A stretch of DNA of 39,902 nt from an uncultured Acidimicrobiales bacterium (GTDB lineage: Bacteria > Actinomycetota > Acidimicrobiia > Acidimicrobiales > SHLQ01). Shown here one piece after another: positions 3,155 to 17,054 of this stretch. The position numbers and the translations under genes were made by a program. Under the pieces are notes generated by a model. The model had not been told where the DNA came from, made no database searches, and worked only from the letters and a program-made list of their open reading frames with translations. Position 1 is the stretch's first letter; each line of letters begins with the position of its first letter. Location: NCBI GenBank assembly GCA_938040365.1, contig CALHXU010000213.1:1-39902 (forward strand), read 5' to 3'.

Positions 3155-5818
3155 TTAGCTCCACGCCGAGGCTCGTTCGCGGTTCTTTTCGTTGACCAGC
3201 GGCAACTCGTTGCGCCACTCGCCGTCGTGAGACTGCATCGCTGCGGCTACAGCCCCTGCGGTTGGGACCAAACCAATCTCGCCGACACCCTTGATGCCGT
3301 ACGGACTGTTTGGCTCGGCCGACTCTACGAGGATCACATCGACAGGCGGCATGTCCTTCGGACGGATGATCGCGAGCGAACGCAACGTCTCGTTGAGCGG
3401 CTTGCCGTTCTCATCACATGGAAACCCTTCGCTCATCGCGTAGCCGAGGCCCATGTGCACCGCACCTTCGACCTGGCCTTCGCACAACAGCGGGTTGACC
3501 GCTTTGCCAACGTCGTGCGCCGCAACGACGTTCTCGATGTCGCCAGTTTCCGGATCGAGCACGACCATCTGCGCCGCATACCCAAAGGTCGAGTGGATGA
3601 TTGGATTCTCGAGCCCTTCGTTGAGCGAGTTCGTCCAATCGACTCGGTATTCACCTTCGTAGTCGACGCCGGGTTTGCAGCCATCGGCCACTGCCTTCTC
3701 ACACGCATCCTTCACCGAACCGGCTCCCATGAGCGTTCCGCGACTGCCGGTGGTCTGACCTGCGCCAAGCTCTCGGGTCGAGTCGACGATCACCCGAATG
3801 CGTTCGGCTGGAATATTCAACTCTTCGACGGCGACCTGGAGTGCAACGGTGTGCACGCCCTGGCCCATCTCGGTCCAACAGTGGCGAACCTCGACGATGT
3901 CGGAGTCCTCACGGAAGTGGATGACAGCCTTGGCAATCTCCTTAAAGCCATTGCCGAGGCCCGAGTTCTTGAGCCCGAGGCCAAGCCCGACCGGCTTTCC
4001 GGCCGCGACCGCTTCGTCATAGGCGGGCTTGACTGCGTCGAGGCACTCGCGCGCACCGAGGCACCCGTCGTCCATCTTCTGACCAGGCCCCCACACCACG
4101 CCGGGCGTGATCACGTTGCGGCTGCGAATCTCCCAGCCGCTAATGCCAGCCTTCTCGGCCAATCGGTCGAGCACGCCCTCCATGGCGAACTGGGCTTGGT
4201 TGGCGCCGAACCCACGGAACGCGCCACATACCGAATTGTTGGTGCGGGCAGCGACGGCTTCGACGTCGATGTTCTCGCACACATACGGACCAGACGCATG
4301 GCCTGCCGCACGTTCGAGGACCTTCATGCCGACCGACGCGTACGGGCCGGAATCGCCGAGCATCCGAACTCGAAGCCCAACGAGCTTGCCGTCGGCGTCA
4401 CATCCTGCCTCGTACTCCATCTTGATGGCGTGGCGCTTGGTGTGGACGAGGAACGACTCCTCACGCGAGAACGTCGTCTTCACCGGACGATCGAGCAACC
4501 ATGCGGCGAGCGCCGTCTGGCCTTGATTCGACATGTCGTCCTTGCCGCCGAACGCGCCTCCGTTGCTGACGAGTTCGGTAAACACGAGCGAGACATCGAT
4601 GTCGAGCATGCGGGCAATGTCGTTGCGATCATCCCAAATGCCCTGACCTCCCGAGTACACATAAAGCCGGCGCTCGTCGGAGGTTTCGGCCGAGTCGCCC
4701 ATGGTTCCGGTCGCTGGCAAAGGCTCGCCAGGAGCGATCGGAACGGCCAACGTGCTTTCGGGTTCGACAAAGGCATGGTCGATGCGCTGGGTTTGGAACG
4801 TCTCTCGAACCACGTGAGTCGCACCGGCCAAGCCAGCTTCGACATCGCCACGCGAATACGTCGAAGTCGACAGCACGTTGCCATCGAGGGTCCACACTGC
4901 GTCTTCATCCGACGCGACCGCTTCGGCCGGGTTGGTCATCGGCGTGAGCACGTCGTAGCTCACGTTGACGAGTTCGGCCGCCTTGCGCGCAATCGCCCGG
5001 GTTTCCGCGACGACGAGGGCCAGCACGTCACCCATGTAGCTCGTTCGCCCGCCAACCGGAATGAACGTTGGCCAATCCTTGTGGATGAGTCCACTGCGCA
5101 ACTCGCCGGGAACATCGGCGCCGGTCAGCACCCGCACCACACCGTCGACCGCTTCGGCAGCCGCCGTGTCGATGGCCGTAATGTTCGCCCGAGCATGTTC
5201 GGTGAGGTGCACCGCTCCGTGTAACAGCCCTGCGGGGACCATGTCATCGATGAACGGTCGGTCGCCCATTGCGAACTCGTGGGCTTCGTACTTGATGCCC
5301 CGGCTACCAACGCCACCGGGTTGGATGGCCACCGGCACTTCGCCGGCGGCGATGTCTTCGATCGCGTCGAGGATCTTGATGTAGCCCGTGCATCGGCACA
5401 GGTGCGCTCCGAGCAGGGCCGCAGCGTTCTCTCGGGTGAGATCGGCACCCTTCTTGTCGACCATTGCCTTGGTTCGCATCACGATGCCCGGCGTACAGAA
5501 TCCGCACTGCAGCGCGCCGTGCGCCGCGAACGCCGCCGACATTGCATCTCGCTCGGATGGGTCGACACCCTCGAGCGTGAGCACCTCGCTACCGGCGGTT
5601 TTCTCGAGCGACGTTTGGCAGGCGACGCGCGCCTTGCCATCGACCATCACCGTGCAACAACCACACTGTCCGCTCGGCGAGCACCCGTCCTTTGGCGACA
5701 TCACACCGAGCTCATCGCGCAGCGCAGTGAGGAGGTGCTCGTGGTGATCGCCGACACTGACCGGCGTGCCATTCAGGATGAAATTGACTGGCGTGCCATT
5801 CAAGATGAAGTCGGTCAT
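3155..5818 (-). CDS. Selenium-dependent-type xanthine dehydrogenase (2Fe-2S + Mo domains)
   Basis: The 887-residue molybdenum hydroxylase combines two N-terminal [2Fe-2S] domains with the molybdopterin domains in one chain. The first cluster region has C46, C52 and C54/C55 (CSPSGQCGCC) and C67; the second has CGFC (105-108) and CRC (141-143). The Mo part shows NGGAFGGKDD, a CGAFRGFGANQAQ segment and KGVGEIGLVP, which holds the catalytic Glu of xanthine-oxidase-family enzymes. The arrangement matches the Se-dependent xanthine dehydrogenase family and relates to XdhD. It should hydroxylate purines at the cytoplasmic Mo site. No FAD subunit is in the operon, so the electron acceptor is open; the YgfK-like protein is a candidate. 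The start overlaps the nitrilase stop (ATGA). The N-terminus contains a tandem repeat of a 9-residue segment. Confidence 0.87.
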   Translation of the reverse strand: MTDFILNGTPVNFILNGTPVSVGDHHEHLLTALRDELGVMSPKDGCSPSGQCGCCTVMVDGKARVACQTSLEKTAGSEVLTLEGVDPSERDAMSAAFAAHGALQCGFCTPGIVMRTKAMVDKKGADLTRENAAALLGAHLCRCTGYIKILDAIEDIAAGEVPVAIQPGGVGSRGIKYEAHEFAMGDRPFIDDMVPAGLLHGAVHLTEHARANITAIDTAAAEAVDGVVRVLTGADVPGELRSGLIHKDWPTFIPVGGRTSYMGDVLALVVAETRAIARKAAELVNVSYDVLTPMTNPAEAVASDEDAVWTLDGNVLSTSTYSRGDVEAGLAGATHVVRETFQTQRIDHAFVEPESTLAVPIAPGEPLPATGTMGDSAETSDERRLYVYSGGQGIWDDRNDIARMLDIDVSLVFTELVSNGGAFGGKDDMSNQGQTALAAWLLDRPVKTTFSREESFLVHTKRHAIKMEYEAGCDADGKLVGLRVRMLGDSGPYASVGMKVLERAAGHASGPYVCENIDVEAVAARTNNSVCGAFRGFGANQAQFAMEGVLDRLAEKAGISGWEIRSRNVITPGVVWGPGQKMDDGCLGARECLDAVKPAYDEAVAAGKPVGLGLGLKNSGLGNGFKEIAKAVIHFREDSDIVEVRHCWTEMGQGVHTVALQVAVEELNIPAERIRVIVDSTRELGAGQTTGSRGTLMGAGSVKDACEKAVADGCKPGVDYEGEYRVDWTNSLNEGLENPIIHSTFGYAAQMVVLDPETGDIENVVAAHDVGKAVNPLLCEGQVEGAVHMGLGYAMSEGFPCDENGKPLNETLRSLAIIRPKDMPPVDVILVESAEPNSPYGIKGVGEIGLVPTAGAVAAAMQSHDGEWRNELPLVNEKNRERASAWS
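5765..5818 (-). repeat. 27-bp tandem duplication at the start of the xanthine dehydrogenase gene
   Basis: The first 20 codons encode DFILNGTPV followed by NFILNGTPV. The two 27-base units are nearly identical; for example, GGCGTGCCATTCA occurs in both on the plus strand. The repeat is in frame and lengthens the first beta-hairpin of the 2Fe-2S domain by nine residues. An alternative reading is that the second copy is the ancestral N-terminus, but only the first copy has an ATG, and that ATG overlaps the upstream stop. Confidence 0.8.
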
Positions 5819-6744
5819 GGCTCGATGACCCCTTTCTGGTTGGTGATTCGCTGGTACAGCTCGGGGCGGCGGTAGGTCGCGAAGTTAAAGAGTGTGTCTT
5901 TGTATTTTGCGCAGTGATCGAGGTCGCAGTCGGCAACGATGACCTCGTCGCCCGTTGTGATGGCTTGAGCCACGATCTGGCCCGATGGCGCAATGATCGC
6001 CGATTGTGCGAGCGATTCGACACCCTCTTCGGTGCCGCCCTTCGCCACGCCAACCACCCAGGTGCCGTTTTGGTAGGCACCCGCTTGCATGCAGAGGTGG
6101 TTGTGAAAGCCCTGGAGCGCGTTCTGTCCTGGATCGGGGGCGTAGTGGATCGGCGTGTTGTAGCCAATCATGATCAGCTCGACGCCTTGGAGGCCCATCT
6201 CTCGGTAGGTCTCAGGCCAGCGACGATCGTTGCAGGTAGCGAGACCGACGAGCCCGTCGAATGCTCGATGCACGGGGAAGCCAGCGTCTGACTCTTGAAA
6301 GTATCGGCGTTCGAGGTGTTGAAACTCTCGCCACGGCTCGTCGCCCTCGTGTCCGGGTATGTGCACCTTGCGGAACTTGGTGACGATGCTTCCATCGCGC
6401 TCGACCAGCACGGTCGTGTTAAAGCGTTCGCCATCGGGGGTCAGTTCGGCATACCCCAAGGCGAAACCGACGCCCAACGCCTTCGCGTCGTCGAACAGCG
6501 GCTGGGTCTCGGGCCCGGGCATCTCGGTCTCGTAATAGTGGTCGTGGCCGGAGATGTCCTCGGTAAACCACCGCGGGAAGAACGTCGTGAGCGCGAGCTC
6601 GGGGAAGACCACCAACTCGGCACCGTCGTTGGCGGCCTTGGCCAGCAGTGAACGAAGCCGCGCCACCACGTCGGCTCGCGGCTCATCTTTTGCGATGGGT
6701 CCGAGCTGAGCTGCAGCGACCCGCAGCACTCGTGAGTCAGCCAT
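5815..6744 (-). CDS. N-carbamoyl-D-amino-acid hydrolase-like nitrilase
   Basis: The 309-residue carbon-nitrogen hydrolase has the catalytic triad E49 (VVFPELALTTFFPRW), K126 (KFRKVHIPGH) and C171 (CNDRRWPE). Spacing, length and flanking motifs (YETEMPGP, FQHLERRYF, GYNTP, SMQAG-like CMQAGAYQNG) closely follow bacterial N-carbamoyl-D-amino-acid amidohydrolase (D-carbamoylase, ~304 residues). That enzyme hydrolyses a ureido group to a free amine, CO2 and ammonia in the cytoplasm. In this operon the substrate is more likely a carbamoylated intermediate from an opened purine ring than a hydantoin-derived D-amino acid; that is inference. It overlaps ygfK by 8 bases and xdh by 4 bases, so the three are translationally coupled. 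A beta-ureidopropionase activity is the main alternative. Confidence 0.87.
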   Translation of the reverse strand: MADSRVLRVAAAQLGPIAKDEPRADVVARLRSLLAKAANDGAELVVFPELALTTFFPRWFTEDISGHDHYYETEMPGPETQPLFDDAKALGVGFALGYAELTPDGERFNTTVLVERDGSIVTKFRKVHIPGHEGDEPWREFQHLERRYFQESDAGFPVHRAFDGLVGLATCNDRRWPETYREMGLQGVELIMIGYNTPIHYAPDPGQNALQGFHNHLCMQAGAYQNGTWVVGVAKGGTEEGVESLAQSAIIAPSGQIVAQAITTGDEVIVADCDLDHCAKYKDTLFNFATYRRPELYQRITNQKGVIEP

Positions 6745-8563
6745 TGTTTACTCCAACGCCTGTCCCAAGAGGGTTGCCCTTTTGGCTTTCGAGCAACCGT
6801 TCGATGAGGTTGAACGACTCGTCATCGATGCCCTTTGCGCTCAGCCCGTCGCCCGAGACGAGAACGCCGGGCGTCTCGCGATCGTGAAACACCGAAGCGT
6901 CGGTGTAGAGGCGAGGCTTCACCATGGCGGGGTCGCCGTTCTCAGGGCAGAAGGTCATGCAGTTGCCGCACTCGTTGCACAATTCGCTCAGTACGAAGTA
7001 CTGCTGGCGGCTGTCCTCCATGCTCGAAAGCCCGGTGTCGACAAGGCTCGGGATCGAGAAGAACGCATCGTTCGGACACACGGTGATGCAGAAGTTACAC
7101 GATACGCAACCGAACATTTCGAGATCGTTCTCGACCTCACGAGGCATTTTCTCGTTGGCCGCAAAGTGATAGGCCTCGCGTCCATCGCCGCGCAGGTTGG
7201 CCACATACCGCGCGCTCACACTTTCGTGGCCTGCGTCGACCGACTCGGCCTGACGAAGTGCTCGCCACGAGGCGAGATCGGTTGCTTCGGTTGCGGCAAT
7301 CTCTTTGGTGAGCGCCTTAAGCATCGGAGCGAGCCGGCCATAACCGCCAGGCTTGAGCAGGTCCGAACACACCGTTGCCGGGTTAACACCCATGGCAAGT
7401 GAATCGGCGAGGTTCGCCTTGGTGATGCCCGCCGAGAAGCTCACCATGATGTTGCCATCGTGACCGGGAATGTTGAGCTGACCCGGAAGGGCTGTTGCGA
7501 GCTTGTCGAGCAAAGTCGACGCCAAGACGTGGAGCGGCGGGCCGCTGAGATACATCGTGTCCTCGGGCATCCATTGCTTTTCGTTGCTCACGACGAGCGT
7601 GTTGGTGAGCTTGATCCCAAAGAGCCGATCGCGCTCGTGGGCATAGTCGCGCAGCTCGCCGATCAATTCGATGCCACGATCGAACTGCAGGTCTTCGGCG
7701 AAGGCTTCTTCTTTAACGTTGACATCGAGATAGCCGAGCTCGTCGTTGACGATTGCCGCAACGGTTTCGTAGCCGAGCAAGGTTGGATTGAGCTTGACGA
7801 TGACGTCGAGGCCATGTTCGTCGATCAGGTGCTTGGTGATCGACTCGATCTCGTCGGGCGGGCAGCCATGAAACGTCGAGAGCGTGAGTGTGCTCGAAAG
7901 CGCCGTAGTGAAATCGAAGTCTCGGAATTCGGCGAACGCATCGGGAATCTCGGCTCGCAGCGCTTCGACCTCGGCGGTTGCGTCTTTCATACCTTCGATG
8001 AACGCGTGGATCTGGGGCGAGGAGATGCCCGCAAGGTCATACCCAACCGACATGTCGAACACGTACTGGCCCGGGTTCGGGCCAATGTGCTCGGCGAGCG
8101 GCTCCCAATTCTGCAGGATGTCGATGAGCATCGACGCCTTGACGTACTCGGTGAGGCTGTCAGCGATCTTCAGCTCTTGGCTCCACTCGATGTTGTAGCC
8201 AATCGTGGCCATGTCGATGCACGGCCGCTGGATCTCGAGCTCGTCGAGAATCTGGACGGTCTTGAGTTCAAACAGGCGCGACCCGCCGAGCCAGCTGAGC
8301 ACGATGTTTTGCGCCAACTGGCTGTGTGGGCCAGCAGCAGGACCCACGGGCGAGGCACAAGGCCGACCGAGGAACTCGAAACCCAAGTCGATGGTCTCGT
8401 CGGGCGACCAGATGCGAGCGGTCGGCAGATCAAAAATCTTCTTGCGCGTCTCCCACTCGTGAGCAATTCGCTCGAGCAACTGACCGAGCCCCATCGGCGT
8501 GAGCGGCGGGGTTGAACCGTGCGGCGTATGTCCCGGGTGCGTGTCGAGGGAATTTTGAGTCAA
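6737..8563 (-). CDS. YgfK-like iron-sulfur protein lacking the GltD module
   Basis: The 608-residue protein starts with a dihydroorotate-dehydrogenase-like barrel typical of YgfK ('putative selenate reductase subunit'): SPVGPAAGPHSQLAQNI (71-87), FELKTVQIL, TLSTFHGCPPDEIE (228-240), KLNPTLLGY (257-265) and DLLKPGGYGRL (401-411). A ferredoxin-type tail has two CxxCxxCxxxC motifs at C486/489/492/496 and C529/532/535/539. YgfK is normally ~1,000 residues, with a GltD-like FAD/NAD(P)H module between these parts. That module is absent here, and the barrel runs into the ferredoxin domain after ~50 residues. The start is TTG at 8563 with a good AAGGAG site 8 bases upstream. It is the first gene of the leftward purine operon and probably supplies or accepts electrons for purine ring chemistry. 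Confidence 0.85.
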   Translation of the reverse strand: MTQNSLDTHPGHTPHGSTPPLTPMGLGQLLERIAHEWETRKKIFDLPTARIWSPDETIDLGFEFLGRPCASPVGPAAGPHSQLAQNIVLSWLGGSRLFELKTVQILDELEIQRPCIDMATIGYNIEWSQELKIADSLTEYVKASMLIDILQNWEPLAEHIGPNPGQYVFDMSVGYDLAGISSPQIHAFIEGMKDATAEVEALRAEIPDAFAEFRDFDFTTALSSTLTLSTFHGCPPDEIESITKHLIDEHGLDVIVKLNPTLLGYETVAAIVNDELGYLDVNVKEEAFAEDLQFDRGIELIGELRDYAHERDRLFGIKLTNTLVVSNEKQWMPEDTMYLSGPPLHVLASTLLDKLATALPGQLNIPGHDGNIMVSFSAGITKANLADSLAMGVNPATVCSDLLKPGGYGRLAPMLKALTKEIAATEATDLASWRALRQAESVDAGHESVSARYVANLRGDGREAYHFAANEKMPREVENDLEMFGCVSCNFCITVCPNDAFFSIPSLVDTGLSSMEDSRQQYFVLSELCNECGNCMTFCPENGDPAMVKPRLYTDASVFHDRETPGVLVSGDGLSAKGIDDESFNLIERLLESQKGNPLGTGVGVNNG

Positions 8564-8830
8564 CGTCGCTTCTCCTTACGAGTGGGCTGGTCCGGCCGGT
8601 CACTCATTTGCATTCGTTGGTCGTCCGACCATTGGTTGAAATCGGTGCTGGTTGGACATGGCGAGCGATTGGACCTTAGGTTACCCATAGATACGCGCAG
8701 CTTAACAGTTTGTAAAACCCAAAGTTAACGCTTTGTAAAGCGTTTGTTTCGAGTGAACCAAACGTGAAGCGGCGCGATTTGAATTGCAGTCGGGGGACGC
8801 GTACGTGACTGGGCAGTCGGAGGGGAAACA
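8564..8830. promoter_or_regulatory. Divergent promoter region of the purine operons
   Basis: This 267-base gene-free stretch separates the leftward catabolic operon from the rightward regulator/transporter operon. It is more AT-rich than its surroundings near 8690-8760 and carries repeated TTTGTAAA boxes. No confident -35/-10 pair was assigned by eye. Confidence 0.7.
8709..8744. promoter_or_regulatory. Candidate operator: TTTGTAAA boxes and 18-bp palindrome
   Basis: TTTGTAAA occurs at 8709-8716 and again at 8732-8739, 23 bases apart. The second copy is the core of a perfect palindrome, AACGCTTTGTAAAGCGTT (8727-8744, 8-base arms around GT). The first copy is an imperfect version (AGTTTGTAAAAC). 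Position in the divergent promoter, 87 bases before the regulator start, fits binding by the adjacent YkoF/HTH_22 regulator. This is inferred from placement and symmetry only. Confidence 0.55.
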
Positions 8831-9340
8831 TTGGCTCGAGTTGATGCCAAACAACGAGTAGCGGTCGAGTTCCTCGTTGAACCCTTCGTCGAAGGAGCAC
8901 CCGGCAACCACGTGATGGCGGCGATCGAAGCCTTTTCGTCGCGCCAGCTCGAGGTCGAACTCGGTCCGTTCGCGTCGATCGCGACCGGACCGATCGATTC
9001 GATTGGCGAGGCCGTATCGGCCATGGTCGTCGACGCGATGAACGCTGGAGCGACGACGATCAACCTCTCCGTAGCGAGCGACGCCCGCGAGCTCGGCTCC
9101 TCGTCGCTGCACGATGCACTCGACGCAATGTTGCGCGCCGCCGAACGAGAGGTTGGTTCAAACCCCAAGGACTGGACCCGCGAAGACAAACAACGGGTGA
9201 TTCGAATGCTCGACGAGCGCGGCGCCTTTCTCTTGCGAGGCGCGGTGCACGACGTTGCCGATGCCATGGGCGTGAGTCGCATCACGGTCTACAACTACCT
9301 CAACGCGATCGAAGACCGCTCCGAAGGACGGGCCACGTGA
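8831..9340 (+). CDS. Transcriptional regulator: YkoF-like ligand domain + HTH_22
   Basis: The 169-residue protein has two parts. Residues 10-83 resemble the YkoF/thiamine-binding ferredoxin-like fold: VEFLVEPFVEG, then ELGPFASIATG and ATTINLSVA. That family binds thiamine or hydroxymethylpyrimidine. Residues 117-160 match the C-terminal helix-turn-helix of the YheO/HTH_22 family: LDERGAFLLRGAVHDVADAM, then GVSRITVYNYLNAI. A small-molecule sensor for a pyrimidine- or purine-like ring joined to a DNA-binding domain fits local control of purine uptake and breakdown. The start is TTG at 8831 with GGAGGGG upstream. Its stop overlaps the GTG of the first permease, so it is co-transcribed with the importer. 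Ligand and sign of regulation are unknown. Confidence 0.75.
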   Translation: MARVDAKQRVAVEFLVEPFVEGAPGNHVMAAIEAFSSRQLEVELGPFASIATGPIDSIGEAVSAMVVDAMNAGATTINLSVASDARELGSSSLHDALDAMLRAAEREVGSNPKDWTREDKQRVIRMLDERGAFLLRGAVHDVADAMGVSRITVYNYLNAIEDRSEGRAT

Positions 9341-10419
9341 AACGACTCGCTGGCGGCGTCGTCCCTCTCGGCGCAGCATTTCTCGCCTTCCTCCTCGGCG
9401 CGCTCATGATCATCGCGTTGGGAGCATCGCCAGCCGATGGCCTCGCCGCAATGTTCGACGGCGCCTTCGGAACGACCGATCGAATCGCCGCCACTGCAGT
9501 CCGCGCAACCCCGCTGCTTCTGGTCGGCGCGGGAATCACGATCGCGTTCCGCGCGAGCGTTATCAACATCGGCGGCGAAGGACAGATCATCGCCGGGGCG
9601 CTGCTTTCCACATCGGTCGCCCTCGCAATTCCCGACACCCCACGGATTGCACTCATCCCAATCGTCGTGCTTGCAGGCCTGATCGGAGGCGGGATCTGGG
9701 GCGCGATTCCCGGTGTGCTGAAGGCATATGCGTCAGTCAACGAGATCCTGAGCACGGTGATGTTGAACATCGTCGCGATCCAGCTCATGAACTTCCTGCT
9801 GCGCGGGCCACTCATCGACCCGATCGAAGTCGGCACGAGCCGCATCCCACAAACCCAACGACTGACCGACAACGCCGCACTGCCAACCCTGGTCGAAGGC
9901 AGCCGACTTCACCTCGGCGTTCCCATCGCCATCGTCGCCGCGATCATCGTCTATCTGATCTTGTTTCGAACACCGTTCGGCTTTCGACTTCGAGCGGTCG
10001 GCCACAACCCCGATGCCGCACGAGCTGCGGGAATCTCGGTGGAGAAGAACATCGTGAGCGCCCTGTCGCTGAGCGGCGCACTCTCCGGGCTCGCCGGCGT
10101 GATCTTGGTCTTTGGCAGCGAGAGCCTCCGTCTCGTAACCGATGGTGGTTCTGCCGGATTCACCGGATCGGCAGGCTTTAACGGCATCGTGACCGCGCTG
10201 TTCGGCGGACTTCACCCGCTCTGGACAATCCCCAGCTCATTCCTGTTCGGATCGCTCCTCACGGGCGCGACCGAACTTCAACGAGAACTCCAGATTCCGA
10301 ACGCGCTCGCAATTGCACTCAACGGCCTCATCGTGCTGTTCGTCGTGAGCAGCGACCGCGTACGCGGCTGGCTCGACACCCGACTCGACCGCTCGATGAA
10401 AGCGAGGGTCGAAGAGTGA
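9337..10419 (+). CDS. ABC importer permease, nucleoside/BMP type (NupP-like)
   Basis: The 360-residue, strongly hydrophobic protein with about ten membrane spans belongs to the branched-chain/ribose-type permease family (BPD_transp_2). Characteristic stretches are FRASVINIGGEGQIIAGALL, NEILSTVMLNIVAIQL and FRLRAVGHNPDAARAAGIS, the last being the cytoplasmic coupling loop. It is one of the two membrane subunits of the importer encoded with the BMP lipoprotein and the double ATPase. This permease class serves guanosine/purine nucleosides in characterised systems, which suits the neighbouring purine enzymes. It starts with GTG overlapping the regulator stop, and its end overlaps the second permease (GTGA). 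Confidence 0.88.
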   Translation: MKRLAGGVVPLGAAFLAFLLGALMIIALGASPADGLAAMFDGAFGTTDRIAATAVRATPLLLVGAGITIAFRASVINIGGEGQIIAGALLSTSVALAIPDTPRIALIPIVVLAGLIGGGIWGAIPGVLKAYASVNEILSTVMLNIVAIQLMNFLLRGPLIDPIEVGTSRIPQTQRLTDNAALPTLVEGSRLHLGVPIAIVAAIIVYLILFRTPFGFRLRAVGHNPDAARAAGISVEKNIVSALSLSGALSGLAGVILVFGSESLRLVTDGGSAGFTGSAGFNGIVTALFGGLHPLWTIPSSFLFGSLLTGATELQRELQIPNALAIALNGLIVLFVVSSDRVRGWLDTRLDRSMKARVEE

Positions 10420-11369
10420 GCGAATTCTTTACCGTCAGCGTCATCTTTGCCACGCTCTCGACCTCGATCCGTTTCGCCGTTCCCTACCTCTTCGCCGCCC
10501 TCGGCGAAACGGTCGGCCAACGCAGCGGGGTGCTCAACCTGGGCGTCGACGGCATCATGTTGCTCGGTGGGTTCGGCGCCTACTACGCGGTGCTCGAAAC
10601 CGACAGCCACATCCTCGGTGTCATCGCCGGTCTCGCCGTTGGACTCCTCATGGGCCTCGTCTACGGGGTCGTCACAGTGTTCCTCCACGCCAAACAAGGC
10701 ATCAGCGGCATCGGCATCTTCCTGTTCGGCCTGGGCTTTAGCGACCTGCTGTTCCAAGAACTGGTCGGAACACCACTACCCATTCGACCCCTCCCCCGAC
10801 TCGATCAGCTCCCGGCGGTCGGAGGAATCTTTGAACCGCTCGTCGAACTCCCGGTCGTCGGCCCGTTGATCTTCGACCACGACCTCCTCACCTTCTTGGC
10901 GTTCCTTCTCGTTCCAGCGGTCACGTGGTTGCTCCGCAAGACCACCTTTGGCATGAACGTTCGGGCCGTCGGCGAAAACCCACAAGCCGCAGACAGCCTT
11001 GGCGTATCGGTTGCGAGAACACGCTTCATCTCGATCCTCATCGGCAGCACGCTCGCCGGGCTCGCTGGCGCCACGCTGTCGATGCAGCTCGCGATCTTCC
11101 AGCAAAACCTGACCAACGGCATTGGCTTCATCGCCGTCGCGCTCGTCTACTTCGGCGCATGGCAACCACGCTGGGTCATGGCCGGGGCACTCCTCTATGG
11201 CATCGTCACCGCCACCCGAATCCGCTGGCAATCACTCGACATCATCCCGCAAGGCGCAAGCGATGTCGCAGCAATGGCGCCGGCGGTCATCACCATCCTG
11301 GCGCTCGTCCTGCTCGCCAGCCGAGTGCGCGGGCCAGCAGCACTCACCCGGCCATTTAGCCGGCACTAA
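10416..11369 (+). CDS. ABC importer permease, nucleoside/BMP type (NupQ-like)
   Basis: The 317-residue polytopic membrane protein is the second permease of the importer. Family features are RFAVPYLFAALGETVGQRSG, LNLGVDGIMLLGGF near the start and the coupling segment FGMNVRAVGENPQAADSLGV. About eight to nine membrane spans are visible. It overlaps the preceding permease by 4 bases, so the two subunits are made together to form the heterodimeric channel. It is followed 40 bases later by the substrate-binding lipoprotein gene. Confidence 0.88.
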   Translation: MSEFFTVSVIFATLSTSIRFAVPYLFAALGETVGQRSGVLNLGVDGIMLLGGFGAYYAVLETDSHILGVIAGLAVGLLMGLVYGVVTVFLHAKQGISGIGIFLFGLGFSDLLFQELVGTPLPIRPLPRLDQLPAVGGIFEPLVELPVVGPLIFDHDLLTFLAFLLVPAVTWLLRKTTFGMNVRAVGENPQAADSLGVSVARTRFISILIGSTLAGLAGATLSMQLAIFQQNLTNGIGFIAVALVYFGAWQPRWVMAGALLYGIVTATRIRWQSLDIIPQGASDVAAMAPAVITILALVLLASRVRGPAALTRPFSRH

Positions 11370-11409: not shown

Positions 11410-12417
11410 ATGAAAAACAAAAAAATACTGAAGCTACTCGGAGCGCTCTTTGCGTTCACACTGCTCGCCACTGCATGTGGCAGCTCATCGACCGATAGCG
11501 CCGGCGAATCAGATGGCGGATCAGACGGCGGATCAGCAGAAGCATCGACCGGCCTCTCGGTCGCTGTCGTTGCACCGAGCGCATCTGATGACGTCGCGTT
11601 CACCCAATCGATGATCGACTCACTTGGACGCCTCGGCGTTTCACCTCAGGTCACCGACGGCACCTTCGTCGTCGAAGAAGCCGCAGCGGCAATTCGCGGG
11701 TTCGCCGAAGACGGAACCGACGTCGTGGTCGCACACGGCACCCAATACGGCGGCTCGCTCGAAGAGATCGCACCCGACTTCCCCGAGACATCGTTCATTT
11801 GGGGAACCGCAACCGACAACCGCGGGCTCGACAACGTCTTTGCCTACAACCCAGCAGCAGACCAAGGCGGATACGTCATGGGCCTCATCGCTGGCAACAT
11901 CGTCGGCGGAGAAGACATCGGTGTCGTTGGCCCCGTCGAAGCAGGCGATGCCGTTGCGTACATCAACGGCTTTGCCCTGGGTGCCGAGGCAGCAGGCTCC
12001 TCGACGTCGATCGTCTACACCGGCTCATTCAGCGATGTTGCGCTCGCAACGACCACCGCTCAAGCACACGTCGACAACGGCGTCTCCGCCCTCACCGGCA
12101 CCAGCCAATCAGCGGTCGGCGCAGTGAACATTGCATCGGCGAACGAACTCCCATGGTTCGGCACCCAATCGAACACCGAACCATGGTCAGAAGACTTCAC
12201 CGTCGTCTCGCAGGTGTACCACTGGGACGTCGTGCTCGCCGAAATGTTCGCCCTCATCGAAGACGGCACCCTCGGCGGCCAAGCCTTTGAGCTCACGCTC
12301 GAAAACGAAGGCCTCGTCCTCGAATACAACGACGCATTCGAACTCGACGCAGACGTACGCGCCGCAGCCGACGAAGCAGTCGCAGGAATTATCTCCGGCG
12401 ACATCGCAACGCAGTGA
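11410..12417 (+). CDS. BMP-family substrate-binding lipoprotein
   Basis: The 335-residue protein has a lipoprotein signal ending LLATAC (lipid-anchored C23), a short Ser/Gly/Asp-rich linker, and then a PnrA/BMP-type binding domain. Family features include VVAHGTQYGGSLEEIAPDFP, FAYNPAADQGGYVMGLIAG, TGTSQSAVGAVNIA and VYHWDVVLAEMFALIEDGTL. Members bind purine nucleosides or related ligands outside the membrane and deliver them to paired permeases. The start follows a GGGAGGG site. It is separated from the ATPase gene by 178 bases of structured repeats, unlike the overlapping genes before it. That suggests the binding protein is made in excess over the ATPase. Confidence 0.88.
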   Translation: MKNKKILKLLGALFAFTLLATACGSSSTDSAGESDGGSDGGSAEASTGLSVAVVAPSASDDVAFTQSMIDSLGRLGVSPQVTDGTFVVEEAAAAIRGFAEDGTDVVVAHGTQYGGSLEEIAPDFPETSFIWGTATDNRGLDNVFAYNPAADQGGYVMGLIAGNIVGGEDIGVVGPVEAGDAVAYINGFALGAEAAGSSTSIVYTGSFSDVALATTTAQAHVDNGVSALTGTSQSAVGAVNIASANELPWFGTQSNTEPWSEDFTVVSQVYHWDVVLAEMFALIEDGTLGGQAFELTLENEGLVLEYNDAFELDADVRAAADEAVAGIISGDIATQ

Positions 12418-12595: not shown

Positions 12596-14104
12596 ATGGA
12601 GCGCACTCCGCTGCTCTCAATGCACAACATCACCAAGACCTTCCCAGGAGTGCTCGCGAACGACGACGTGTCGTTCGACGTGCACAGCGGCGAGGTGCAC
12701 ACACTGTTGGGCGAAAACGGTGCGGGCAAGAGCACGCTCATGAAGATCCTCTTTGGGCTTTACCAACCAGACTCCGGAGAGATTCGGCTTCGCGGCGAGA
12801 TCGCTGCGATCGATTCGCCCACCAGCGCAATCGAACATCGCGTTGGCATGGTCCACCAGCACTTCATGTTGGTCCCGACCCTGACCGTCGCCGAGAACGT
12901 CGCGCTCGGACTCCCCTCAGCGCGGGGCTTTCGCACCGACCTTGACGCCGTTAGCGAACGCATCCTCGAGATCAGCAATCAGTACGGGTTGGCCGTCGAC
13001 CCCGGAATCGAAATCTGGAAACTGTCGGTCGGCGAGCGCCAGCGCGTCGAGATCATCAAGGCGCTGTACCGCGACGCAGAGCTCCTCGTACTCGACGAAC
13101 CAACCGCGGTGCTCACCCCCCAAGAAGTCGACGACCTGTTCGTGATCCTCCGGCAGATGACCAACGACGGAACCGGCATCATCTTCATCTCGCACAAGCT
13201 CCATGAAGTCCTCGAACTCAGCGACCGGATCACCGTGCTTCGCAACGGCGCGGTCACCGGCAGCACAACCCCGGCCGAATCAGACCGCCAGCAACTCGCC
13301 GAGATGATGGTCGGACGCGAAGTAAAGCTCGCACCCGACAAACCCGCGGTCGACCGAGGGCCAGCGCGGCTTCAGCTTCGCAACGTGTCGGTGAAGGGCG
13401 ACCGAGGAACCGTCGCCGTCGACGACGTGAGCCTCGACGTTCACGCCGGCGAGATCGTCGGCATCGCCGGCGTATCGGGCAATGGCCAGCGAGAACTCGC
13501 CGAAACAATCGCAGGGTTACGAAACGCACAAGGCGGATCGGTCAGAATCGATAGCACCGACCTCACCAACGCCAGCCCCGCCGAAGTTCGAGCCGCCGGC
13601 TTTGCCTACGTCCCCGAAGAGCGGATGAAAGACGGCGCCGTCGGCGAGTTCGAGGTGAGCGAAAATCTCTTGCTCATCAATCACGGTGACCCACAATTTC
13701 GCAAGGGGCCTCTGTTCGACTTTGCAAAGATCAGAGCGCACTCGCAACGGCTCGTCGATCAGTTCTCGGTAAAGACGCCAACGCTCGACACACCGACCAG
13801 CACGCTGTCTGGCGGCAATATTCAAAAGCTGATCATGGCGCGCGAACTCGACTCCTCGCCAACGGTCATCCTCGCCGCGCAACCCACCCGAGGCGTCGAC
13901 ATCGGCGCCGCCGAGTACATCCACTCGCAGTTGGTTCAGCAGCGAAGTGACGGCGTTGCGATCTTGATGGTGAGCGAAGACCTCGACGAGATCCTCGGTC
14001 TCGCAGACCGAATCGCTGTCATGTTCGACGGCAAGATCGTCACGGTCATCGAACGCGAGTCGGCCACCCGCGAAGCGCTCGGTCTCGCAATGGCCGGCGG
14101 CTAA
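12596..14104 (+). CDS. ABC importer ATPase with two nucleotide-binding domains (NupO/RbsA-like)
   Basis: The 502-residue protein holds two ABC domains in tandem. Domain 1 has Walker A GENGAGKST (39-47), signature LSVGERQRVEI and Walker B LLVLDEPTAVLTP. Domain 2 has the degenerate P-loop GVSGNGQRE usual for this family, signature LSGGNIQKLIMARE and AAQPTRGVDIGA. A single double-domain ATPase energises both permeases, as in other BMP-type nucleoside importers. An ATG at 12596 follows GGAGAGGA. It is the last gene of the rightward uptake operon. Confidence 0.9.
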   Translation: MERTPLLSMHNITKTFPGVLANDDVSFDVHSGEVHTLLGENGAGKSTLMKILFGLYQPDSGEIRLRGEIAAIDSPTSAIEHRVGMVHQHFMLVPTLTVAENVALGLPSARGFRTDLDAVSERILEISNQYGLAVDPGIEIWKLSVGERQRVEIIKALYRDAELLVLDEPTAVLTPQEVDDLFVILRQMTNDGTGIIFISHKLHEVLELSDRITVLRNGAVTGSTTPAESDRQQLAEMMVGREVKLAPDKPAVDRGPARLQLRNVSVKGDRGTVAVDDVSLDVHAGEIVGIAGVSGNGQRELAETIAGLRNAQGGSVRIDSTDLTNASPAEVRAAGFAYVPEERMKDGAVGEFEVSENLLLINHGDPQFRKGPLFDFAKIRAHSQRLVDQFSVKTPTLDTPTSTLSGGNIQKLIMARELDSSPTVILAAQPTRGVDIGAAEYIHSQLVQQRSDGVAILMVSEDLDEILGLADRIAVMFDGKIVTVIERESATREALGLAMAGG

Positions 14105-15679: not shown

Positions 15680-16918
15680 TCAGGTGGTCTCGAGGTTCGC
15701 GAGCGCGAGCATCGTGTGCAACAGCACATTTGCTCCCGCTTCGAGATCTTCAGGCGAGGTGTACTCGGCCGGATTGTGGCTAATGCCGTTCACGCTCGGC
15801 GTAAAGACCATCGCCGTTGGACAGACCCGGGCAAACATCTGGGCATCGTGACCAGCACCCGACGGCATCCGCTTCACGCTGTAGCCGAGGTTGGACGATG
15901 CAGACTCGACAATGTCGACGACAGCGGGGTCGAAAATGACCGGTTCGAACCGCGCGAGGGTTCGGGTCTCGACCGTGCAGCCCTCGGCGGACGCCGTTTT
16001 TTCGAGGAACTCAGCAAACCGTTGCTCACTCTCCTGCAGCGTTGCCTCGTCGGTATTGCGAAGATCGACAGTGAACGTTGCCGTTGCGGCGACGACGTTG
16101 ACGAGGTTGGGATGCAGATCGATGCGGCCCACCGTCGCCACCTGCGGATCGCCGAGTTCGAGCGCGAGCTCTCGGGCGAAGTTCGCGCACGCAGCTGCGA
16201 CGAAACCCGGATCCTTGCGAAGACCCATCGGCGTCGTCCCTGCGTGATTCGACTGTCCAACGACCTCGACCTCGGTCCAACTAATGCCCTGCACGCCATC
16301 TACCGCGCCAATGGTGACGTCTTCGATTTCGAGCACCGGACCCTGTTCGATGTGTAACTCAACAAAGCTGTGCGGGGACGGACCGGGTAGCGGCGCCGAG
16401 CCGGCATATCCAATTCGCTCGAGTTCTTCGCCCACGATCGCGCCGTCGATACCGGAAATATCGAGTGCTTCTTCGAGCGGCATCCCGCCGACGTACACCA
16501 AGCTGCCCAACATGTCGGGAGCAAAGCGAGAGCCCTCTTCGTCGGTGAAGAAGCCGACTGCGAACCGGCGAGCGGGAGTGATTCCGGCCGCTTGAATCGT
16601 CTCGATGACCTCGAGGCCTGCGAGCACTCCGAGGTTTCCGTCGTAGCGTCCTCCGGTTCGAACCGTATCGATGTGCGAACCGGTCATGACCGGTGGCCCC
16701 TCACCGGGCATCGTCGCAATGACATTCCCAATGCCATCGACGGAGACCTCGAGACCAAGATCGGTCATCCACGTAACCACCAGATCGCGGCCCGCTTTGT
16801 CCTCGTCGGTGAGCGCTAACCGAGCACAGCCCTCAGTGCCTTCGATCGCGCCGATCTCGGCGAGTTCGGCGAGACGTCCGAGAAGGCGGTCGATATTGAT
16901 CGAGAGGTCGTGTTCCAT
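15680..16918 (-). CDS. Allantoate / N-carbamoyl-L-amino-acid amidohydrolase family enzyme
   Basis: The 412-residue M20-type metallo-amidohydrolase carries the family's metal ligands: GSHIDTV (H82), YDGNLGV (D93), FTDEEGSRF (E127/E128), HIEQGP (H189) and a late His in SHNPAEY. The length and the short dimerisation insertion fit the HyuC/AllC group, which removes ureido or ureide groups from allantoate, N-carbamoyl-L-amino acids or beta-ureidopropionate. These cannot be told apart by eye. It lies a few kilobases from the purine operon and could act on a purine-derived ureide. GTG at 16921 and ATG at 16918 are adjacent starts; the ATG is used here. It faces the gap gene, with 48 bases between stops. 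Confidence 0.85.
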   Translation of the reverse strand: MEHDLSINIDRLLGRLAELAEIGAIEGTEGCARLALTDEDKAGRDLVVTWMTDLGLEVSVDGIGNVIATMPGEGPPVMTGSHIDTVRTGGRYDGNLGVLAGLEVIETIQAAGITPARRFAVGFFTDEEGSRFAPDMLGSLVYVGGMPLEEALDISGIDGAIVGEELERIGYAGSAPLPGPSPHSFVELHIEQGPVLEIEDVTIGAVDGVQGISWTEVEVVGQSNHAGTTPMGLRKDPGFVAAACANFARELALELGDPQVATVGRIDLHPNLVNVVAATATFTVDLRNTDEATLQESEQRFAEFLEKTASAEGCTVETRTLARFEPVIFDPAVVDIVESASSNLGYSVKRMPSGAGHDAQMFARVCPTAMVFTPSVNGISHNPAEYTSPEDLEAGANVLLHTMLALANLETT

Positions 16919-17054
16919 CACGCCAAACTACCAACACACCCCGGCGGAGAACGACTGCGGAACCTGCTCGACGTCGCGAATAGAAAGATCGCTCCCGCGG
17001 TTGTGGTTAATAGAACTGTTGTCCGAAACGTCACTGCGGGTTGAGAGGATCGAA

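Follow-up and report, generated by a model that had tools for sequence, protein, structure and literature searches.

The regulator gene that is the subject of this report occupies positions 8831..9340 of the forward strand of the window, by which we mean the whole 39.9-kb stretch of DNA that was analyzed. As the initial annotation proposed, it is an open reading frame of 169 amino acids that begins with TTG and has its stop codon within this range, and it joins two domains in a single protein, a fusion now supported by Pfam, by an AF2 model, and by fused homologues. The C-terminal domain (residues 97-158; 9119..9304, +) is an HTH_22 DNA-binding domain that matches Pfam PF13309 with 73.3 bits against a cut-off of 29.6, over profile positions 2-63 of 63. 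The N-terminal domain (residues 13-98; 8867..9124, +) is a sensor-like domain of the Thiamine_BP/DUF77 type, recognized by Pfam, AF2, Foldseek, and a profile search of PDB sequences. Its Thiamine_BP score (PF01910) of 22.8 bits is slightly below the cut-off of 24.9; fused relatives score above both Pfam cut-offs, with Thiamine_BP values of 32.9, 34.4, and 41.2 bits at loci L031, L066, and L185, respectively. The closest relative, the fused homologue at L071, is 79% identical to the window protein over residues 1-168, and other fused homologues show lower identity. Because independent MAGs have the same one-frame arrangement, the fusion is not an artefact of assembly.

Divergent from the regulator is a reverse-strand operon whose first gene (6737..8563) encodes a short YgfK-like reductase of 608 amino acids with Fer4 motifs identified by Pfam; TIGR03315 matches it with 430.8 bits (cut-off 835.3), the best stretch being residues 22-435. 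The operon also contains a carbon-nitrogen hydrolase (CNH; 5815..6744, −; PF00795, 166.9 bits) and a xanthine-dehydrogenase-family protein (XDH; 3155..5818, −; TIGR03311, 761.9 bits, cut-off 830.45). On the other side, an importer is encoded by genes for permease A (9337..10419, +; PF02653), permease B (10416..11369, +; PF02653), a Bmp/PnrA-type substrate-binding protein (11410..12417, +; PF02608, 80 bits), and an ATPase (12596..14104, +; PF00005). This gene map bears out the earlier placing of the regulator between a divergent purine operon and an importer. The stop codon of the regulator overlaps the GTG start of permease A in the sequence GTGA at 9337-9340, which is in line with the co-transcription that had been suggested. 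Further along lies a gene of the M20 carbamoylase/allantoate-amidohydrolase type (15680..16921, −; TIGR01879, 398.2 bits, cut-off 204), whose relatives are the first genes of operons in other genomes that carry the site described below. The combination of XDH, CNH, the YgfK-like protein, and the M20 carbamoylase, encoded here at 3155-8563 and 15680-16921, looks like an Acidimicrobiia variant of the reductive uric-acid route of anaerobes; in relatives, SsnA-like and 8-oxoguanine-deaminase genes are added. Near the purine operon, a PLP enzyme of the PALP family is encoded at 489-2030 (−; 39.7 bits, cut-off 35), with no NCBIfam model reaching its cut-off. No sigma-70 promoter or terminator was found in 8550-8850, and no Rfam family in the 39.9-kb window.

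The AF2 model of the window protein (44 sequences, mean pLDDT 86.5, pTM 0.52) has the ferredoxin-like order strand-helix-strand-strand-helix-strand, then a long helix at residues 93-108 and the helices of the HTH domain. In a Foldseek comparison with the PDB, all 12 matches with E ≤ 0.001 were DUF77/MTH1187/TM0486 chains, YkoF (1sbr) appearing at rank 30, and the profile search of PDB sequences found 1yqh of B. cereus with E = 5e-5. The assignment to a family rests on Foldseek and the sequence profiles, because VIA-align scores other ferredoxin-like folds nearly as high (Z of 8-8.7 for unrelated ferredoxin-like folds, compared with a best Z of 9.0 over 81 residues for the DUF77 group). As judged from the model and the profiles, the N-terminal half is a member of the MTH1187/YkoF-like superfamily and belongs to DUF77 (PF01910) rather than to YkoF proper (PF07615). 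The description of this half as a YkoF-like sensor in the initial annotation is therefore correct at the level of the superfamily and incorrect for YkoF itself, given the 12 best Foldseek matches and the lack of any match to PF07615 in the window protein at E ≤ 1. The model also contains one ferredoxin-like domain, compared with the tandem of two in YkoF. The residues invariant in A3 are E13, P18-F19, E21, G25, V28, G45, F47, and G73, and the sensor domain of the subfamily has the pattern EPF-x-E-G-x-P-G-x-H-V ... G-P-F.

Of the 296 genomes surveyed for the class, 96 contain a match to the window protein at E ≤ 1e-3, and in most of the first 30 places inspected the two halves match separately, adjoining each other. 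Classification was extended to 120 loci, comprising 40 fetched stretches and 80 named loci of a genome collection, a few of which are the same place twice; most are from Acidimicrobiia MAGs. At first, 56 loci were classed as fused, 54 as split in the order sensor-HTH, 4 as split in the order HTH-sensor, 1 as split on opposite strands, and 5 as HTH only. Reading the ends of the open reading frames moved three loci over from split, where the alignment had overrun, bringing the fused class to 59 of 120 (L046 and L069 are split loci and stand outside it). The remainder mostly have the same two domains in neighboring genes. Fused proteins are either compact, as in the window, or carry 46-56 extra residues between the domains that are similar, at least in part, to the beginning of the standalone HTH protein. 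In a tree of 119 rows, with four duplicate loci left out beforehand, the three-way label requires 8 changes, and the well-supported branches of this quick tree, whose deep branches are weak, imply a minimum of 2 changes in the split label and 2 in the compact label; fusion or splitting has therefore occurred more than once. Thus, the fused architecture, which had been put forward as unusual and new, is real, and it is one of several recurrent and widespread arrangements rather than a one-off. One locus on the tree, L122, comes from a record titled Bifidobacterium breve and lies near L121, L125, and L126, which are actinobacterial MAGs with other names; it is probably a mislabelled MAG.

The standalone HTH proteins have ~50 extra residues at the N terminus, predicted to form a helix and three strands. 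A remnant of PAS_6 was considered as their source and found no support, hhalign against a PAS_6 regulator aligning the HTH part only. PAS_6 (PF08348) has no match at E ≤ 1 in the window protein, nor in the genome from which the window derives. The AF2 model of a standalone HTH protein (121 residues) has no Foldseek match at E ≤ 0.001. At L042, a standalone HTH protein (9871-10233, −) is modelled with the N-terminal helix and three strands at a mean pLDDT of 92.2 and has no significant match in the PDB.

The neighbors of these genes are often genes of purine breakdown. XDH, CNH, and YgfK-like operons and the Bmp-type importer accompany both fused and split forms in Acidimicrobiia; the neighbors of the fused genes are XDH, CNH, and YgfK-like genes, which are often divergent, and the two permeases, the Bmp protein, and the ATPase, with SsnA-like proteins, the M20 carbamoylase, and 8-oxoguanine deaminase as further neighbors, the last passing its equivalog cut-off at L091 and L103. 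Over the 296 genomes, with presence of CNH defined by E ≤ 1e-60, 74 have both CNH and the regulator, 8 have CNH only, and 22 have the regulator only (p = 4e-40). In a sample of the phylum outside the class, matches occur in 81 of 396 genomes, many of them to one domain only. Ten large genomes (7-10 Mb) of one genus, probably Streptomyces, have adjoining sensor and HTH genes; nine of the ten loci also include an 8-oxoguanine-deaminase-like gene in the same stretch. At one of them, L175, the pair is followed directly by genes for OHCU decarboxylase, HIUase, and uricase, and at L185, which belongs to another family, genes for uricase and a xanthine/uracil permease come after a fused gene. In Streptomyces coelicolor, SCO6209-6211 are OHCU decarboxylase, HIU hydrolase, and urate oxidase (PMC4991794), and SCO6208 is named in PMC3897704 as a putative transposase; from the order of the genes, SCO6208 may be the HTH gene of the pair. 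The gene at 9638-10261 of L175 is probably the Streptomyces version of the HTH partner. In family f2 (L033-L044, L048, L049, and similar loci), the neighbors of the split pair at most loci are genes for a divergent M20 peptidase and for a HAD hydrolase, not purine genes. At L225-L227, the sensor and HTH genes are ~12 kb apart and frame the purine cluster, and at L228 the sensor is outside the stretch; at each of the four loci, a site of 16-18 bits immediately precedes the HTH gene.

The palindrome TTTACA-N3-TGTAAA occurs twice in the divergent promoter of the window, as the operator-like GCTTAACAGTTTGTAAAAC at 8700..8718 (unstranded; 25.4 bits with the motif) and as a second operator-like sequence, AGTTAACGCTTTGTAAAGC, at 8723..8741 (unstranded; 17.4 bits), 23 bp from the first when measured from centre to centre. 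Nowhere else in the 39.9 kb is there a site of at least 10 bits. The stretch 8690-8760, earlier proposed to be regulatory, thus contains two conserved candidate operators. For the motif, near-identical upstream regions were dropped, reducing 114 to 102 (51 fused, 51 split). A palindromic EM search of the 51 distinct fused upstreams gave a log-likelihood of 404 at width 18, compared with 60.7-64.8 for three resampled sets, and odd widths of 15-21 gave 513-546, with the consensus TTTACAAaTTGTAAA. The 1% null score is exceeded by 46 of the 51 fused upstreams, which is an in-sample figure, and by 13 of the 51 held-out upstreams of split type; 11 of these 13 reach at least 12 bits, and all 11 have purine genes nearby. 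Across 115 loci, five having been left out, a site of at least 16 bits is present at 66 of the 72 with purine genes nearby and at 2 of the 43 without, in a count that mixes training and held-out loci. A looser pattern, TTNACNNNNTGTNAA, matches five places in the whole genome of the window, both window sites included, and is neither rarer nor commoner than its reversed control (4 forward and 2 reverse matches versus 3 and 3), so the case for the site rests on conservation and not on rarity.

Where the order of the genes changes, the site follows the purine and regulator genes. At L072, L074, and L075, YgfK and the regulator each have a site upstream; at L095 and L097-L099, the site precedes the permease; and L071 has three sites at 24-bp spacing. 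Self-control by the regulator is not general, because the motif finds no site at the Streptomyces-like loci and no strong site precedes the split pairs of family f2, which have two weak ones (8.0 and 7.4 bits). A search for a separate palindrome in 32 upstreams of f2-type split pairs returned low-information patterns only. In five loci, the position of Ile151 is occupied by Phe (helix SRFT, compared with [SN][RK][IVM][TS]), and all five are without the site, two of them having purine genes nearby; the Streptomyces-like HTH protein also has Phe here. This pattern is a hint that agrees with the palindrome being read by the HTH_22 helix, but it may only follow kinship.

A further comparison is offered by genomes in which the regulator would act in trans. 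Some families, f2 among them, encode the regulator at another place in the genome or at the distant end of the cluster, and the CNH regions of 31 such genomes were compared with those of 8 genomes that have CNH and no regulator (one of the 8 being in two stretches). Of the 31, 23 have a site of at least 16 bits, as does 1 of the 8 (Fisher p = 0.0026, for eight controls from few, related lineages, with completeness of 89-100% and kinship ignored); at 18 bits or more, the counts are 19 of 31 and none of 8 (p = 0.002, kinship again ignored). Eight of the 31 regions have no site at the lower threshold, and the single regulator-less genome with a site, L211, has a weak one of 16.8 bits. Order-3 Markov copies of the CNH regions, amounting to 2.54 Mb, contained no site of at least 14 bits. 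The 8 regulator-less genomes also gave no match to a profile of the standalone HTH protein, which recovers five of five positive genomes. In the family of G007, CNH is present in 18 of 50 genomes, and the regulator is missing from no more of these than the 3 already identified. The motif, the in-trans association, and the link between site and purine genes across the 115 loci together make up strong comparative evidence for the control of purine genes that had been suggested, and a purine-catabolism regulon is, at the level of sequence, well supported.

Our preferred reading, to which we would attach a probability of around 0.7, is that the window protein represses purine catabolism by binding DNA and that its DUF77 domain is a sensor for a purine or one of the products of purine breakdown. 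In the mechanism that we infer, the HTH_22 domain would bind TTTACA-N3-TGTAAA in the form of a dimer or a larger oligomer, and the bound protein would shut the XDH-CNH-YgfK and regulator-importer operons, thereby also controlling itself; one protein could shut both operons because the two sites lie in their common promoter region. The 23-bp spacing of these sites, and that of 24 bp at L071, suggests that dimers would be bound as neighbors. The DUF77/Thiamine_BP domain would be the sensor, a role suggested by its position, its relatives, and the constancy of its partner, with the binding of a purine or early breakdown product causing release of the DNA. Urate or xanthine is our guess at the ligand, because the module accompanies uricase-type and YgfK-type pathways alike. 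Many relatives have the sensor and the DNA-binder as neighboring genes, and so the fused gene would join what is elsewhere a two-protein regulator.

The position of the site bears on the direction of control. Among the 52 fused loci with a site, 11 have its centre at −1 to −12 from the chosen start codon of the regulator, several sites overlapping start codons, and repression is likelier than activation because a protein sitting at the start codon would block the gene; activation of that gene from 1-12 bp would be unworkable. The two window sites are 99-122 bp from the regulator start and 146-169 bp from the YgfK start, so that repression here would be less direct than in relatives. Such distances are activator-like and speak for the protein being an activator rather than a repressor, a reading that we nevertheless regard as unlikely. 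It could also be argued that the DUF77 domain does nothing more than hold subunits together, binding no small molecule and leaving the signal to come from elsewhere. The domain is small, and DUF77 proteins are generally oligomers. The invariant residues of the domain suggest that it does more, the domain is tied to one pathway, and in many lineages a separate sensor gene is kept beside the HTH gene, so that a role confined to assembly seems rather improbable.

More doubtful again is the proposition that the palindrome is the site of another regulator, which travels with the purine operons while the DUF77-HTH_22 protein acts elsewhere. DNA binding by the latter is a prediction, and the f2 pairs lack a strong site of their own; however, the site is associated with the pair in trans, and the Phe-variant loci are all without it, two despite their purine genes. 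Least probable, and a long shot in our estimation, is a thiamine/HMP sensor, in which DUF77 would bind thiamine as in TM0486 or YkoF, the Bmp-type importer would bring in the vitamin, and the purine genes would be passengers: the DUF77 relatives with solved structures are candidate thiamine-binding proteins and the best NCBIfam matches of the importer are putative B6 transporter models, albeit far below their cut-offs, but the window contains no Rfam family, riboswitches included; operons of the XDH, CNH, YgfK-like, and M20 types are preceded by the site, which moves with them around the genome; and genes for uricase, OHCU decarboxylase, HIUase, and 8-oxoguanine deaminase are also found beside the pair.

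Evenly balanced, to our minds, is a wider proposal: that DUF77 proteins include a purine-sensing branch; that throughout Actinomycetota the sensor and the HTH_22 partner on which it docks are a split one-component system of two small proteins, with several fusions, of which the window protein is the minimal form; and that the same module runs uricase operons in Streptomyces, where the HTH gene is apparently listed as a transposase.

Several of these elements have counterparts in known systems. The YheO-type regulators, such as Cj1387c of Campylobacter and DauR of Pseudomonas, share the HTH_22 domain and the plan of a small one-component regulator beside the gene that it controls, and Cj1387c (PAS_6 plus HTH_22) is described as repressing its neighbor (PMC4519771). 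The window protein differs in having DUF77 in place of PAS_6 and in its link to purine catabolism, whereas Cj1387c stands with the L-PSP-domain gene Cj1388 and DauR is associated with D-arginine genes (PMC7789669). With the Thiamine_BP/DUF77 proteins TM0486, MTH1187, MJ1052, and 1yqh of B. cereus, which are its best structural matches, the sensor domain shares the ferredoxin-like fold and a length of ~85 residues; unlike them, it is fused to, or encoded beside, an HTH protein and has the subfamily pattern given above. TM0486, the only DUF77 protein so named in the literature covered, is called thiamin-binding in the title of a reference in PMC6393860. YkoF, the HMP/thiamin-binding protein of B. 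subtilis, is of the same superfamily and consists of two such domains in tandem (PMC3779223). The reductive uric-acid cluster of E. coli and C. difficile (XdhD, YgfK, SsnA, YgeY) has XDH-, YgfK-, SsnA-, and M20-type genes in common with the clusters described here, in which the YgfK-like protein is shorter and the CN-hydrolase is constant. The words "regulator" and "HTH" are absent from the main text of PMC12507026, on the reductive uric-acid pathway. A mention of "DUF77" in PMC3711429 was rejected, being DUF772, and among the matches listed from one open-access library, none described DUF77 and HTH_22 as forming a single regulator or as regulating purine genes.

HTH_22 regulators and DUF77 proteins are each already known; what is new is a one-component HTH_22 regulator with a swapped, and sometimes detached, sensor, together with the TTTACA-N3-TGTAAA palindrome at regulator and purine operons. 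The purine company of its relatives and their common DNA site suggest an undescribed bacterial way of sensing purines. DUF77 proteins occur widely, mostly with no assigned role; one branch of them here gains a pathway, a partner, and a DNA site. Purine breakdown in Actinomycetota, probably also in cultured Streptomyces, would thereby gain a further family of regulators. The repeated fusion or splitting of sensor and DNA-binder amounts to a natural experiment on how one-component regulators originate.
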